A stretch of 15,952 bases of DNA from DASVDK01 sp036562265 [NCBI: Thermodesulfobacteriota bacterium] (GTDB taxonomy: Bacteria > DASVDK01). Positions 740-15,916 of the stretch are shown in pieces. The translations under genes and the position numbers were made by a program. Within the stretch, counting starts at the first letter, position 1; every line of letters starts with the position of its first letter. The DNA is taken from positions 1-15,952 of the forward strand of contig DATCKS010000236.1 in the NCBI GenBank assembly GCA_036562265.1, given 5' to 3'. The notes under the pieces were generated by a model. The model made no database searches. It worked only from the letters and a program-made list of their open reading frames with translations, and was not told where the DNA came from.

Positions 740-3136
740 CTACCAGACGCGCGCCCGGACGGCCGCCGCCGATCGCGGTTCGGACGCCGAGTACGCGCCC
801 CAGGTCCAGTCGCGGATCTCGGGCATGTCTTCTCCGTACATCGTGATGTACTGCTTGTGCTCGATCAGCCGGTCGCGCAGCGCCTGCCGCGCGTACGCGG
901 CGATGTAGCCGAGCTTGGGCACCCGGTCGATCACGTCGCCCACCAGGTGGTAGCGGTCGATGTCGTTGCGCACGACCATGTCGAACGGCGTCGTCGTGGT
1001 CCCCTCCTCCTTGTAGCCCCGCACGTGCAGGTTGCGGTGGTTCGTGCGCCGGTACGTGAGCCGGTGGATCAGCCAGGGGTACCCGTGGAAGGCGAAGATG
1101 ATCGGCTTGTCGGTCGTGAAGAGGCTGTCGAACTCCCGGTCCGAGAGGCCGTGGGGGTGTTCGGTGTTCGGCTGCAGCTTCATGAGGTCGACGACGTTCA
1201 CGACGCGGACCTTGAGATCGGGGAAGTACTTCCGCAGGAGGTCGACCGCGGCGAGCGTCTCGAGGGTCGGGATGTCGCCCGCGCAGGCCATGACGACGTC
1301 CGGCTCGCCGCCCACGTCGTTGCTCGCCCAGTCCCAGATCCCGATGCCGGCCGTACAGTGCTTCACGGCCGCGTCCATGTCGAGGTACTGGAGCGCCGGC
1401 TGCTTGCCCGCGACGACGACGTTCACGGTGTTGCGGCTCCTGAGGCAGACGTCGGTCACGTAGAGGAGCGTGTTCGCGTCGGGCGGCAGGTAGACGCGGA
1501 TGATGTCGGGCTTCTTGTTGGTGACGACGTCGATGAAGCCGGGGTCCTGGTGCGAGAAGCCGTTGTGGTCCTGGCGCCAGACGTGGGAGGTGAGCAGGTA
1601 GGTGAGCGACGCGATGGGCGCCCGCCAGGGGACCTCCTTGCTCGACACCTTGAGCCACTTGGCGTGCTGGTTGAACATCGAGTCGACGATGTGGACGAAG
1701 GCCTCGTACGACGTGAAGATCCCGTGTCGGCCCGTGAGGAGGTAGCCCTCGAGCCAGCCCTGGAGGGTCGTCTCGCTGAGGATCTCCATGGCGCGCCCGT
1801 CGGGGGCGAGGTGGTCGTCGTCCGGCAGCCGCTCGGCGACCCAGGTGCGGTCGGTCGCCTCGAAGACGGCGGACAGGCGGTTCGAGGCGATCTCGTCCGG
1901 GCCGAAGAGGCGGAAGTTCGTGGGGTTGGCCCGCATGACGTCGCGGATGAACTGCCCGAGGACGTTCGTGGCCTCGGCCACCACCCTCCCCGGCTCGGGG
2001 ACGTCGACGGCGTAGCGCCGGAAGTCGGGGAGCCTGAGGTCGCGCAGGAGGAGCCCGCCGTTGGCGTGCGGGTTCGCCCCCATGCGGCGGGTCCCCTTCG
2101 GCGCGAGGGCCCGCAGGCGCGGCACCGGCGCGCCGGTCTCGTCGAAGAGCTCCTCCGGCCGGTAGCTCTTCATCCACGCCTCGAGGATCTTCACGTGCTC
2201 GGGCTTCGAGGCCAGCTCCGCGAGCGGCACCTGGTGGGAACGCCAGCTCCCCTCGATCGTCTTGCCGTCGACCTCCTCGGGGCCGGTCCAGCCCTTCGGG
2301 GTCCTGAGGACGATCATCGGCCAGCGCGGGCGGTCGGTCCTGCCGTTCGCCCGCGCCTCGTGCTGGATGCGCGCGATCTCGTCGAGCACCGCGTCGAGCG
2401 TCTCCGCCATCTTCCGGTGCATGACCATGGGATCCGACCCCTCGACGAAGTAGGGCCGGTACCCGTAGCCGACGAGGAGGCTCTCGAGTTCCTCGCGGCC
2501 GATCCTCGCGAGGATCGTCGGGTTCGCGATCTTGTAGCCGTTCAGATGGAGGATCGGCAGCACGGCGCCGTCGCGAGCGGGGTTGAGGAACTTGTTCGAG
2601 TGCCAGGACGCGGCGAGGGGGCCGGTCTCGGCCTCGCCGTCGCCCACCACGCAGGCGACGATGAGGTCGGGATTGTCGAAGGCGGCGCCGTAGGCGTGGG
2701 CGAGCGAGTAACCGAGCTCGCCCCCCTCGTTGATGGACCCCGGCACCTCGGGTGCCACATGGCTCGGGACGCCCCCCGGGAACGAGAACTGCTTGAAGAG
2801 CCGCCGCATCCCCTCGGCGTCCTGCGAGACGCTCGGGTAGAGCTCGCTGTACGTCCCCTCGAGATACGTGTTGGCCACGAGCGCGGGCCCGCCGTGCCCG
2901 GGACCGGTCACGTAGATCATGTTGAGGTCGCGCTCGTTGATCACGCGGTTCAGGTGGACGTAGATGAAGTTGAGCCCGGGCGCCGTCCCCCAGTGGCCGA
3001 GCAGTCGCGGCTTGATGTGCTCGAGCCTGAGCGGTTCGCGCAGGAGGGGGTTGTCGAGGAGGTAGATCTGCCCGACGGACAGGTAATTGGCGGCTCGCCA
3101 GTAGGCGTCGATCGCCTCGAGCGTGGCCTCGTCCAT
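740..3136 (-). CDS. xfp: Xylulose-5-phosphate/fructose-6-phosphate phosphoketolase
   Basis: Thiamine-diphosphate enzyme that phosphorolytically cleaves xylulose-5-P (to acetyl-P and glyceraldehyde-3-P) and, in dual-specificity members, fructose-6-P (to acetyl-P and erythrose-4-P). The 798-residue product has the normal family length. Visible motifs are LGHWGT (His48), GPGHGG (78-83), the family signature NEGGELGY (136-143), and the ThDP/Mg site GDGEAETG (165-172) followed by [12 protein letters not shown]. The three-domain transketolase-like layout appears complete, with an intact C-terminal region. The ATG at 3136 is preceded by AGGTGA that overlaps the TGA stop of glgP. The gap to glgP is 8 nt and to ackA 13 nt, so it is the third gene of the operon. 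Substrate preference cannot be read from the sequence. Lying after pgm and glgP argues for use of fructose-6-P, and this is inference. Confidence 0.97.
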
Positions 3137-3144
3137 GGTTCACC

Positions 3145-5672
3145 TCACCGCTGCCAGAGGATCTGGTTCGCCTCGAGGGGGATCGCCGCGTCCGGATGCG
3201 CGGGCACGGCGCGCGCCGTGTAGTGCCAGGCCGGCCGCGTCGCGGGGATGCGGGCGGCGTAGACGTACCCGGGCTCCGGGCCGGGCAGCCGCGCGCCCCG
3301 CACGAGCGTCTCCCGGACCGGCGGCCCCCCGTCGAGCGGATCGGCGTAGAGCTCCACCCGGATCGCGTCGGGGTCGAGGGAGCCGGTGAAGAGCTCCACG
3401 CGGAACGCGTGATGCCCGCCGGCCGTGTCGACCGAGACGGCGCCGAATCGGAGCGCCCGGAAGTCGCGCGCGAGGTGTCGCCGCCAGTCGGTCAGGCGGC
3501 GGCCGAGGGCCGCGTCGTCGGACGCGCGGCGGCGATAGGCCGCCGCGGCCGGCAGGTAGTGCCGCTCGGTGTACTCCCGCACCGTCCGGTCGGCCGAGAA
3601 CCGGAGCGTCAGGCGGGCCATGCTCTCCCGCACGCGCGCGAGCCAGGCGACCGGGATGCCGCGGACGTCCCGGTCGTAGAAGCACGGGACGACGTCGCGT
3701 TCGAGCCGGTCGTAGAGCGCCGCGGCCTCGGCCGCGTCCCGGGACGGGCCGTCGTCCGGTCCGTCGGCGCCGTCGAGCGCGAAGCCCAGGTCCGGCGCGT
3801 ACGCCTCGGCCCACCAGCCGTCGAGCGTGGAGAGGTTCAGCCCGCCGTTGGCGAGCACCTTCATCCCGCTCGTGCCGCTCGCCTCGTAGGGTCGGCGCGG
3901 CGTGGTGATCCACACGTCCACACCCTGCACGAGGTGCCGGGCGAGGACCATGTCGTAGTCGCCGACGAAGGCGACGCGCGACCGCACCTCGGGCCGCTCG
4001 CGGATGAAGCGCACCCAGGCCTGCACCAGGGCCTGGCCCTCCCGGTCGTGCGGGTGCGCCTTGCCGGCCACGATGAGCTGCACGGGGCGTTCCCGGCTCG
4101 TGAGGAGCCGGACCAGACGGTCCTCGTCGTGCAGGAGGAGGGTCGGGCGCTTGTACGTCGCGAAGCGACGGGCGAAGCCGAGGGTCAACGCCTCCGGGTC
4201 GAACGCCTCGCGGGCCTGGGCGATGTCGCCGTCGTAGGCGCCGGCCGCCGCCAGCTCGCGGGCGACCCGCTCGCGCACGTAGCGGACGAGGGCGCGGCGG
4301 TTCTCGGTGCGCATGCGCCAGAGCGCCTCGTCGGGGAGCCGGCGGATGGCTGCCGCCGCGTCCACCGCCGCGCCATCCCAGGGGCAGGCGCCGCACGCCG
4401 TCTCCCAGAGCCGCGCGGCCGGAGCCGAGTCCCACGAGGGGACGTGGACCCCGTTGGTGACGTGCACGACCGGGACCTCGGCCTCCGGCCAGCGGGGGAA
4501 GATCGGCTGGAAGATCGGCCGGCTGGTCCGCGCGTGGAGCGCGCTCACGGCGTTGACGGCGCCGCTGCCGCGCGCGGCCAGGTAGGCCATGTTGAACGGC
4601 TCGGACGGGTCGTCGGGCCGTGCCCGGCCGAGGGCCAGGAGTTCGGTGAGATCGAGGCCCAGCTCCTTCTTCGCGTAGTGGCCGAGGAGGCGCGCCACGA
4701 GGTCGGGCGCGAAGCGGTCGAAGCCGGCGTCGACCGGCGTGTGCGTGGTGAAGACGTTGCCGGCACGGGTGACGGTGAGCGCCACGTCGAACGGGTGCCC
4801 GGTCTCCGCCATGAAGCTGCGCGCCCGCTCGAGCACGACCAGCGCGGCGTGCCCCTCGTTCAGGTGGCACACCTCGGGCCGGATCCCGAGGGCGTCGAGC
4901 AGCCGCCAGCCGGCGATGCCGAGCACCATCTCCTGCTGCAGGCGAAGCTCCGGGCCGCCCCCGTACAGCTCGCTCGTGATGCCGCGAATCATCGGCGGGT
5001 TGGCCGGGTCGTTGCTGTCGAGGAGGAGGAGCCGCACCCGTCCCACCGTCGCCTGCCAGGCGCGCAGCCACACCGTGTAGCCGGGCATCGGGATGGCCAG
5101 GCGCACCCACCGGCCGCTCGCGTCCCGCACCGGCGTCACGGGGAGCTGGCCCGGGTCGTTGTAGGGGTAGAGGGCGCGCTGGGTGCCGTCGGGCTCGAGC
5201 ACCTGGCGGAAGTACCCCTGCTGGTAGAGCAGGCCGACGCCGACGACCGGGACGCCGAGGTCGCTGGCCGCCTTGAGCTGGTCGCCGGCCACGTTGCCGA
5301 GCCCGCCCGCGTAGATCGGCAGCGCCTCGCTCAGCATGAACTCGAGGCTGAAGTAGGCGACCGCCGTGAGCGGCGAGTCGGGGTGGGTGCGGGCGAACCA
5401 GGTGTCGCGCGCAAGGTAGCGGCGCCGCGCCGCGATCATCGCCGTGGCCCTGGCGCGCAGCTCGCGGTCGGTGCAGATCTCGTGCAGGCGCGTCAGCGAG
5501 GCGGTCTGCAGGACGGCCCACGCGTTGTGGGTGAGCCCCCAGAGTTCTGGCTCGATCCGCTCCCACAGGGCGTCCTCCGCGTGGTCGAAGGTCCACCGGA
5601 GGTCGAGCGCGAGCGCCGTGAGCTCCTCCCACCCCCGGCGCGCCTCCGCCGAGAGGTCGCGGCCGGGGTCCC

Positions 5673-5676
<4 letters not shown>
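3145..5676 (-). CDS. glgP: Alpha-glucan (glycogen/maltodextrin) phosphorylase, DUF3417-type
   Basis: Pyridoxal-phosphate enzyme that releases glucose-1-phosphate from alpha-1,4-glucans with inorganic phosphate. The 843-residue product starts [19 protein letters not shown]. Its first 100 or so residues resemble the N-terminal DUF3417 region of the long bacterial phosphorylases rather than the E. coli GlgP/MalP type. The catalytic half follows, with [59 protein letters not shown] and IVAGKAHP. The PLP site EASGTSGMK has its lysine at residue 606, and is followed by [13 protein letters not shown]. The ATG at 5676 overlaps the pgm TGA as ATGA (4 nt), which fixes the start and implies translational coupling. 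The open frame runs on upstream to 6807, but that part is only a shadow of pgm. The gene feeds glucose-1-P to Pgm, encoded just before it. Confidence 0.96.
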
Positions 5677-7322
<1,646 letters not shown>

Positions 7323-7324
7323 GC

Positions 7325-7364
7325 GTACCTCCGTTCGGGGGCTCGGGTCCCGAACGGATGGTAC
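7325..7364 (-). promoter_or_regulatory. Leader hairpin sequestering the pgm Shine-Dalgarno sequence
   Basis: A near-perfect dyad lies directly before the pgm ATG. On the plus strand the arms are GTACC TCCGTTCGGG (7325-7339) and CCCGAACGGA T GGTAC (7349-7364). This makes a 15-bp stem with one bulged base (7359) and a 9-nt loop (7340-7348). In the minus-strand mRNA the 3' arm contains the whole GGAGGU of pgm, ending 2 nt before the AUG, so the folded RNA would hide the ribosome binding site. Seen directly: the repeat and its overlap with the SD. Inferred: a translational switch or RNA-binding-protein site. The same dyad could be a DNA operator, because an extended -10-like TGGTACCAT sits in its upstream arm. 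No U-tract follows, so a classical intrinsic terminator is unlikely. Confidence 0.65.
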
Positions 7365-7381
7365 CAGATGCGTCGTGGAGG

Positions 7382-7423
7382 CAGGCCGTACGCCGCCTAT
7401 CGAGGCGATCGGCGGCAGGCCTG
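7382..7423 (-). terminator. Two-step GC-rich stem-loop after sdhB (possible terminator, no U-tract)
   Basis: The structure starts 17 nt beyond the sdhB stop. The outer arms CAGGCC (7382-7387) and GGCCTG (7418-7423) enclose inner arms GCCGCC (7392-7397) and GGCGGC (7411-7416). Inside these, after a T/C mismatch, ATCG pairs with CGAT around the 3-nt loop AGG (7403-7405). That is 16 pairs in total with a 4/1 internal loop. It is placed where the sdhCAB transcript should end and before the pgm leader. No run of T follows on the minus strand, so it may act as a 3'-end stabiliser or Rho-assisted terminator rather than an intrinsic one. Confidence 0.45.
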
Positions 7424-7440
7424 AGCGATCGGCGCGACGC

Positions 7441-8220
7441 CTAGGCCGCGTCCTCCTTCTTGTCGGCCAGGGCGCCGCGCGCGCGCCGCGAGGCCGCCAG
7501 GTAGTCGCGGTTGAGGCGCGAGATGAAGCCGATGCTGATCTCCTTCGGGCAGACCGCCTCGCACTCGCCGTAGAACGTGCAGTTGCCGAAGCCCTCGCGG
7601 TCGTGCGCCGCCACCATGCGCAGGACGCGGGTGTCGCGCTCGGGCTGCCCCTGGGGCAGGAGCCCGAGGTGGGACACCTTGGACGCGACGAAGAGCATGG
7701 CCGACGCGTTGGGGCAGGCCGCGACGCAGGCGCCGCACTGGATGCACTGCGCGGCGTCGAAGGCCTTGTCGGCGTTGGGCTTGGGCACGGGGATCGTGTT
7801 GGCCTCGGGCGCGCTGCCGGTGTTCACCGTGATGTAGCCGCCCGCCTGGATGATCCGGTCGAGGGCCCTCCGGTCGACCACGAGGTCGCGGATGACCGGG
7901 AACGCCTTGGCCCGCCACGGCTCGAGCGTGAGCGTCTCGCCGTTCTTGAAGCTGCGCATGTGGAGCTGGCAGACGGCGGTTCCCCGTCCCGGCCCGTGGG
8001 CGCGCCCGTTGATGACGAAGCCGCACGAGCCGCAGATCCCCTCGCGGCAGTCGTGCGCGAAGGCGATCGGCTCCTCGCCGCGGGCGACGAGCTGCTGGTT
8101 CAGCACGTCGAGCATCTCGAGGAACGACATGTCCGGGTTGACGTCGGTGGCCTTGTACGTGACCAGCCGACCCGGGTCGTTCCGGTCGCGCTGGCGCCAG
8201 ACTCTCAGCGTGAACTCCAC
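7441..8220 (-). CDS. sdhB: Succinate dehydrogenase/fumarate reductase iron-sulfur subunit
   Basis: Carries electrons from the flavin subunit to the membrane cytochrome b through three iron-sulfur clusters, on the cytoplasmic face of the membrane. The 259-residue product has the N-terminal plant-type ferredoxin motif CREGICGSC plus a later Cys (C58, C63, C66, C84) for [2Fe-2S]. [12 protein letters not shown] (C159, C162, C165, C169) and [14 protein letters not shown] (C214, C220, C224) serve the [4Fe-4S] and [3Fe-4S] clusters. I chose the GTG at 8220 (MEFTLRVW). It follows GAGGT, which overlaps the sdhA stop, and gives a normal N-terminus. An open extension up to 8367 reads as low-complexity shadow of sdhA and is rejected. 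It is the last gene of sdhCAB, 7 nt after sdhA. Confidence 0.96.
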
Positions 8221-8227
8221 GGTGACC

Positions 8228-10168
<1,941 letters not shown>

Positions 10169-10847: not shown

Positions 10848-11001
10848 CGCCCCCCGTCCCGTACGAACGTGCGATTCATCCGGCGGACGTAAGCCCGCGA
10901 CCCGGCTCCGTCCCGCCGGATCGGTGCGATCAGTGCTGACCCGGTGTCGCTTCAGGATACCACTGTCGCGTCCCGAATGACGGGGGTCACCCCCCTGGTC
11001 C
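10848..11001 (-). promoter_or_regulatory. sdhCAB upstream region with leader stem-loop
   Basis: The 154-nt gap before sdhC holds an imperfect inverted repeat. CCGGCGGACG (10880-10889) faces CGTCCCGCCGG (10909-10919), 10 pairs with one bulge, and inner AGCC/GGCT pairing is possible. The 3' end of the structure lies about 32 nt upstream of the sdhC ATG on the mRNA. A -10-like TATCCT occurs on the minus strand at 10959-10954, but I see no convincing -35, so the promoter is only a suggestion. Near 10982-10994 is a short palindrome, GGGGGT-C-ACCCCC, shortly after the stop of the next gene upstream; it could mark that transcript's 3' end. Confidence 0.35.
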
Positions 11002-11931: not shown

Positions 11932-12088
11932 GGCTACCGCCGATCGTCGCACGCCTCCGGGCCGCCGTCCACGACCGGCGCGCCGAGGTTACCCGTGCGC
12001 TCGCGTTGCCTGTATGATAGAAAAACGCTGTTCTCCGCTGCCGCCGGCCCCTCGGCCGGCGCCCCGGACACAGGCTGGAGGGTTCACG
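11932..12088 (+). promoter_or_regulatory. Divergent gap with candidate promoter and leader hairpin of the TRAP operon
   Basis: The gap separates the leftward TonB-domain gene from the rightward dctPQM operon. The only A/T-rich patch is at 12011-12025 and contains TATGAT (12013-12018), a fair -10 box (5 of 6 to TATAAT). The best -35 partner is TTACCC (11989-11994) at 18-nt spacing, which is weak. Downstream, in the expected leader, an 8-bp perfect hairpin CGCCGGCC / GGCCGGCG (12042-12049, 12054-12061) has a 4-nt loop. The SD GGAGG at 12077-12081 lies outside the hairpin and is free. An activator-dependent promoter would explain the poor -35, but this is inference. Confidence 0.45.
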
Positions 12089-15447: not shown

Positions 15448-15484
15448 GGCGGGCCTCGTCGCGCCGCGGCGCCGGTGGCACGCC

Positions 15485-15519
15485 GGTTGCTCCCTCCTCG
15501 GGCGAAAGGAGGGGCAACC
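15485..15519 (+). promoter_or_regulatory. Leader hairpin sequestering the SD of the next gene
   Basis: GGTTGC T CCCTCCT (15485-15498) pairs with AGGAGGG GCAACC (15507-15519). This is a 13-bp stem with one bulged T (15491) and an 8-nt loop (15499-15506). The 3' arm contains the AGGAGG ribosome binding site of the gene starting at 15524, and ends 4 nt before the ATG. The folded RNA would hide the SD. The architecture repeats that of the pgm leader (long stem, single bulge, SD in 3' arm), though the sequences differ. A regulatory function is inference; the pairing is seen directly. Confidence 0.6.
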
Positions 15520-15523
15520 AGCC

Positions 15524-15916
15524 ATGAGCACCACCAGGCGCACCATCTCGGTTCTCGTCGTCCTGCTCGTCCTCGCTGCCGTGCCGGCACTGGCCATGAC
15601 GGCCGGAGAGGCGCCGGCGCGTGTGCGGTACCTGCGCGCGACCGGCGAGGTCGTCTCGGTCGACGCCGCGAACCGATCGTTCGTCGTCGAGCGGCGGACC
15701 GGGTCCGGAAAGGGCGAGCGACTCACGATTTACAGCACCTCGGAGACGACGCTCGCGGCCGAGGAGGGAAGGCGAGAGGCGACGAGCCTCAGGGTCGGCG
15801 AGTCGGTTCGGGTCACCTACCGGGAGGACGGCGGCCGGTACGTCGCGAGCCGCGTGACGGTCCTCGCGCCGGCCTCGAGCGGCGCCCGCACGACCCCGGC
15901 TGCCGCCGAACCGTAG
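15524..15916 (+). CDS. Small exported protein of unknown function, OB-like beta domain
   Basis: The 130-residue product starts MSTTRRTISVLVVLLVLAAV, a clear signal peptide with cleavage expected after ALA at residue 24 or close to it. The mature part has the pattern ATGEVVSVDAANRSFVVERR, then a charged segment, then LRVGESVRVTYREDGGRYVA and SRVTVLAP. This strand-turn-strand layout, with G-V-V-x-x-V-D and L-x-x-G-x-x-V-x-V-x-Y, recalls the small periplasmic DUF5666/OB-like proteins. I do not recognise a specific family, catalytic residues or cysteines. The C-terminal tail is Ala/Pro/Thr-rich. The ATG at 15524 is preceded by AGGAGGGG at about 10-11 nt, buried in the hairpin above. It appears to be a separate transcription unit from the maoC-like gene, 76 nt upstream. 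Confidence 0.7.
   Translation: MSTTRRTISVLVVLLVLAAVPALAMTAGEAPARVRYLRATGEVVSVDAANRSFVVERRTGSGKGERLTIYSTSETTLAAEEGRREATSLRVGESVRVTYREDGGRYVASRVTVLAPASSGARTTPAAAEP

Follow-up and report, generated by a model that had tools for sequence, protein, structure and literature searches.

A hairpin burying the Shine-Dalgarno sequence of pgm as a candidate translational lock in an uncultured high-GC bacterial lineage

Introduction

Why should the ribosome binding site of a metabolic gene lie wholly inside a long and stable stem, directly before its start codon? The question is raised by the phosphoglucomutase gene (pgm) of DASVDK01 sp036562265, which is carried on a stretch of 15,952 nucleotides (contig DATCKS010000236.1), referred to here as the window. 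A preliminary description of this DNA had placed the hairpin on the ribosome binding site of the lead gene of a metabolic operon and had suggested that it could be a translational switch, a protein-bound RNA element, or a DNA operator lying over an overlapping promoter. The structure, its genomic setting, its occurrence elsewhere and its likeness to known systems were therefore analysed computationally.

Results

Structure of the pgm hairpin

The features at the start of pgm are as follows.

7325 to 7364, minus strand: hairpin burying the pgm Shine-Dalgarno (SD) sequence, 15 bp, 9-nt loop, one bulged A
7327 to 7332, minus strand: pgm SD sequence GGAGGT, recognised from the sequence, all bases paired, within the 3' arm

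Folding of the minus strand from 7364 to 7325 gave 15 Watson-Crick pairs with a computed energy of -25.0 kcal/mol, which reproduced the hairpin as it had been described (15 bp, one bulge, a 9-nt loop, 2 nt from the start). The 5' arm occupies 7364-7349 (minus strand, in the RNA sense, GTACCATCCGTTCGGG), the C-rich loop of 9 nt occupies 7348-7340 (ACCCGAGCC, minus strand) and the 3' arm occupies 7339-7325 (CCCGAACGGAGGTAC, minus strand), with 5 outer pairs, the bulged A at 7359 and 10 inner pairs; 2 nt (GC) separate the end of the stem from the ATG of pgm at 7322. Every base of the SD (7332-7327) was paired in the 3' arm, so that the burial is complete as claimed, and the computed unpaired probability of the SD region was 0.00.

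Among 200 dinucleotide shuffles of 7313-7375, 1 folded as well as the native sequence (z = -3.08). The signal weakened when the longer 7290-7460 was folded (z = -1.59; 12 of 200 shuffles equally good), although its minimum-energy fold and its centroid both kept the hairpin. Stems of at least 15 pairs were present in 1 of 100 shuffled windows, and averaged 0.02 per window in 200 further shuffled windows. The pgm hairpin is real and non-random.

The pgm gene set and the upstream gap

Five features describe the surroundings of the hairpin.

5673 to 7322, minus strand: pgm, phosphoglucomutase (TIGR01132, 889.2 bits against a cut-off of 778.05), ATG at 7322
3145 to 5676, minus strand: glgP-like alpha-glucan phosphorylase gene (TIGR02094)
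740 to 3136, minus strand: xfp, phosphoketolase, the final gene of the pgm set, beginning 8 nt past glgP
7441 to 8367, minus strand: sdhB, its stop 118 nt before pgm, in the same orientation
7392 to 7416, minus strand: another hairpin in the sdhB-pgm gap, 10-bp core, no T-run, off any start

The stop of pgm and the start of glgP overlap in an ATGA at 5676-5673, and most orthologs of pgm align at the Met encoded at 7322 or a few residues from it. The start of sdhB is uncertain, as its family match begins at residue 51 of the open reading frame and 8367, the first ATG, is probably too early. In the preliminary description pgm leads a metabolic operon; it does head a tight pgm-glgP-xfp set, but no more than 118 nt separate it from the end of sdhB, which has the same orientation. 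Because the minus-strand gene order is sdhC, sdhA, sdhB, pgm, glgP-like and xfp, transcripts from the sdh genes may run into pgm. Possibly the stable hairpin at 7392-7416 (minus strand) marks the 3' end of the sdh message.

No ATG, GTG or TTG occurs in the 118-nt gap, which leaves no upstream open reading frame there whose translation could open the stem. The gap does contain three CTG codons, two of them in the pgm frame, and it is open in that frame throughout (7323-7440, minus strand), the nearest in-frame stop lying 504 nt upstream. The in-frame CTG codons in this open gap make an N-terminally extended pgm product conceivable, and one may be made from them, against which stands the alignment of the orthologs at the ATG.

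A consensus scan of 7250-7520 found no promoter of sigma-70 type. At the outer edge of the hairpin a TACCAT, preceded by TG, was seen by eye to match TATAAT at 4 of 6 positions, and this is what can be said for the overlapping promoter (TGGTACCAT) that had been proposed, the scan itself having returned nothing in support of it. The minimum-energy fold and centroid of 7290-7460 showed no other upstream partner for the 5' arm.

A second hairpin of the same design

The window was scanned for stems of at least 11 pairs, with a loop of 3-12 and at most one one-base bulge, and two were found in its entire length: the pgm hairpin and one on the other strand.

15485 to 15519, plus strand: second SD-burying hairpin, 13 bp, bulged T at 15491, 8-nt loop
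15524 to 15916, plus strand: 130-aa gene that follows the second hairpin, weakly matching DUF5666

The second hairpin (computed at -23.9 kcal/mol) contains the SD AGGAGG at 15507-15512, and 4 nt separate its end from the ATG at 15524. At 20.6 bits the DUF5666 match of its gene falls short of the curated cut-off (27), and the N-terminus of the product looks like a signal peptide by eye. None of 200 shuffles equalled the fold of 15470-15545. The computed unpaired probability of its SD region was again 0.00, and the values computed at other starts in the window ranged from 0.12 to 0.64. No TANNNT hexamer was seen by eye just upstream of this hairpin.

Shape and position are common to the two hairpins, whereas their sequences, those of the loops included, differ. 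In each, the 5' arm carries a single bulged base across from the SD, and 5 (pgm) and 6 (second hairpin) more pairs lie outside that bulge. Both genes sit behind a co-directional gene, pgm after sdhB (gap of 118 nt) and the second gene after maoC (gap of 76 nt); the hairpins begin 76 nt and 37 nt, respectively, past the stop codon of that gene. That an unrelated sequence before a second gene folds alike makes the pgm hairpin look like a translational lock and not a product of chance. When the window was shuffled with its 12 starts held fixed, two or more starts with an SD-burying stem of at least 11 pairs were obtained in 1 of 14,641 shuffles; with at least 13 pairs, two or more starts were obtained in none of the 14,641 and one start in 23. 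In these shuffles and in the unpaired-probability runs the glgP start was set at 5677 (it is actually at 5676) and that of sdhB at 8367.

Two other starts in the window were inspected. The gene sdhC also follows a co-directional gene, and the tonB-sdhC gap (10878-10921, minus strand) holds a 12-bp stem with one bulge and a 19-nt loop, which is off the SD and ends 30 nt before the sdhC ATG. The entire gap 11953-12088 ahead of dctP, a gene with a divergent upstream neighbour, contained no stem longer than 8 pairs.

Baseline counts at other starts

The window together with 146 loci containing pgm orthologs (L001-L146; 894,458 bases in total) yielded 38 hairpins of at least 12 pairs, 3 of which lay on an SD and start, 2 of these being the window's own. 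The third (in L050) has a TTTT behind it and resembles a terminator. Outside the window the design is rare: 1 of 36 such stems was on a start, and that one was terminator-like. Position-shifted controls of the same scan gave counts of 2, 2, 0, 2, 0 and 2 against the 3 observed. Because these controls nearly match the raw count, the case against chance rests on the fixed-start shuffles of the window.

A laxer scan was also run (at least 11 pairs, TTG starts and GGGG allowed, open reading frames of at least 60, with loci sharing their middle 200 bases removed). In 196 cellular loci it returned 81 hairpins, 5 of them on a start, and in 25 viral loci, a biased set picked by dyad pattern, 59 hairpins with 2 on a start. 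The IMG/VR collection supplied 25 stretches with the 9-bp dyad and spacers of 5-14, which were used for baseline purposes only.

Leaders of pgm in other genomes

Relatives were searched for in draws from chosen groups, with E-value cut-offs and partly with only the best candidates per genome. The closest pgm found was 76-77% identical at the protein level (L001 and L176, from one genome, G001), and SdhA identity reached at most 77% among the genomes searched, save for one partial stretch at 78% (G649). Conserved pairing in relatives, which the preliminary description had named as a check, was not observed among these distant orthologs (at most 77% identity): an SD stem above 8 pairs was present in 0 of 103 leaders, and one above 10 pairs in 0 of 29 further leaders. 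The 103 derive from 146 loci with 104 distinct leaders, after removal of those that were identical or had no full N-terminus match and of the short L063; the 29 derive from 30 loci, L188 being skipped, and among them L176 repeats L001. Since it is missing from both sets of distant leaders, SD pairing is, as far as these sequences reach, no general property of pgm, and would be lineage-specific, young or accidental.

The longest stem among the ortholog leaders was a 10-bp AT-rich stem reaching the SD in L199. In four Nitrospira-labelled loci (L002, L003, L004 and L005) a TTGACA was seen by eye 35-37 nt before the pgm ATG and a TACAC near the start, as if their pgm mRNA were nearly leaderless. 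In the locus of the closest ortholog (L001) xfp lies immediately upstream of pgm, which is the opposite of the order in the window.

Discussion

A lock against read-through translation

The reading that best accounts for these results, held tentatively and at a little less than even confidence, is that the pgm hairpin is an SD-sequestering translational lock, whose most likely role is to keep read-through transcripts from being translated, in the manner of phage T4 gene e. On a transcript carrying both arms, the pgm SD would be held in the 15-pair stem, as computed, and ribosomes would hardly load. As glgP overlaps pgm and xfp follows close behind, the lock would extend through coupling over the pgm-glgP-xfp set. 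Its likeliest use would be to keep this set silent on transcripts entering from sdhCAB, 118 nt upstream. Productive mRNA would start in or after the 5' arm, or would lose that arm, and so present a freer SD. When the 5' end was modelled at least 9 nt into the arm, the unpaired probability of the SD rose from 0.00 to about 0.20 (0.20-0.21), the trimmed SD still being mostly paired with other sequence; as the SD is freed to about 0.20 only, trimming lends the guard modest support. In favour of the guard, both hairpin-bearing genes follow co-directional genes, and dctP, with its divergent neighbour, has no comparable stem; sdhC, whose stem is off its SD, is an exception. The scan of 7250-7520, which returned no promoter, and the unexceptional fold of 7290-7460 count against it. 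Of the readings first proposed, a non-chance translational element is supported by the unpaired probability of 0.00 and by the same architecture at a second gene; the absence of pairing from distant orthologs weighs against it.

Under IS10-type protection from impinging transcription, the fold of the read-through RNA conceals the start region. The start region of pgm would be hidden on read-through RNA in the same way; IS10 differs in its transposase context, as none of the 12 window genes checked is a transposase.

Phage T4 offers the nearest parallels. Its genes e, soc and 49 and the I-TevI gene are described as having cis-acting leader hairpins that sequester the SD and/or the start codon (PMC3014915, PMC2988022). 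Those of gene e and I-TevI form on longer transcripts from upstream promoters (PMC3014915, PMC2988022), and for gene e the hairpin on the longer transcripts is stated to cut lysozyme synthesis 100-fold (PMC3014915), while messages from the late promoters, which are well translated, are without the 5' portion of the hairpin (PMC3014915; for I-TevI, PMC2988022). A cis-acting hairpin that sequesters the SD and/or the start codon is common to pgm and to these four genes as so described. The parallel is incomplete in two respects: the late promoters of gene e and I-TevI are described as dropping the 5' strand of the hairpin and no such promoter was found at pgm in 7250-7520, and the T4 hairpins sit on phage genes whereas the pgm hairpin sits on cellular metabolic genes.

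Alternative explanations

The main rival to a read-through guard is a regulated switch, in which the hairpin would be on all pgm mRNA and would be opened in trans by a protein, a helicase, a small RNA or cleavage of the loop when the pathway is needed. The stem is computed to stay closed unaided, so that an opener would be required if it sits on productive mRNA, and the C-rich 9-nt loop could serve as a point of contact. The loop sequences of the two hairpins differ, however, no partner is known, and the 5' arm is without an alternative upstream partner in the folds of 7290-7460. Translational riboswitches and RNA thermometers likewise hide the SD in a helix, and the outcome is the same at pgm. 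The pgm hairpin is unlike both in that it matches no Rfam family (no covariance match in the window reached the gathering score), shows no room for an aptamer and is too stable to melt; the earlier remark that no known riboswitch class fits is in line with the Rfam result, which also speaks against a switch. We regard a regulated switch as unlikely, though it is the strongest of the alternatives.

It is improbable that the inverted repeat serves to bind a dimeric repressor at a pgm promoter, with the RNA fold incidental. Arms of 10 bp spaced by 9 bp are a usual dyad geometry, which the repeat fits, and the TG-preceded TACCAT at its outer edge, noted by eye, would suit a promoter there. The suggestion of a DNA operator was nevertheless weakened on several counts. 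The window contains the dyad only once, and no promoter was found in 7250-7520 by the consensus scan. Among 400 genomes of a neighbouring phylum, a search allowing up to 2 mismatches found the dyad in 4 and its reversed control in 10, so that there was no excess in these non-kin genomes. The one-base bulge, with 5-6 pairs lying beyond it (5 at pgm), would put DNA half-sites out of register, and the second hairpin differs in sequence. An RNA lock is favoured over an operator because shape and place are common to the two hairpins and sequence is not, and because the outer helices continue across the one-base bulge.

More doubtful still is a terminator or 3'-end stabiliser of the upstream operon that does without a U-tract, or an attenuator. 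The hairpins do begin 76 nt (pgm) and 37 nt (second gene) past a co-directional stop codon, but no T-run follows either of them, a scan of 7250-7520 showed a single terminator-like site, which is elsewhere than the pgm hairpin, and a position 2-4 nt before an ATG would be needless for such a role.

Chance is very improbable: the absence of pairing from distant orthologs and the position-shifted controls of the 894,458-base scan are compatible with it, but long stems are scarce in shuffled windows and two SD-burying starts arose in 1 of 14,641 shuffles. Least probable of all is an RNA thermometer, since the SD, although placed within a bulged stem as in known thermometers, is computed to be at least 97% paired up to 70 C in both hairpins (unpaired 0.027 for pgm and 0.004 for the second gene at 70 C).

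Wider significance

If the pgm hairpin is a lock against read-through, the second gene, which follows the co-directional maoC and has the same design in another sequence, would point, on two cases, to a recurrent device of the lineage. More speculatively, and with a good deal less confidence than is placed in the pgm lock itself, this uncultured high-GC lineage may generally insulate its genes against read-through translation by placing singly bulged, SD-burying hairpins of unrelated sequence where transcription units begin, which would be the cellular equivalent of the T4 gene e and I-TevI hairpins. Among the titles and opening lines of abstracts covered in the literature, no bacterial genome was reported to carry SD-burying hairpins as a general trait. 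Should both genes of this 16-kb window be locked in the same way, the whole genome of the lineage could carry many such hairpins. Cells, and not phages alone, might then insulate their operons at the level of translation by hairpins limited to read-through RNA.
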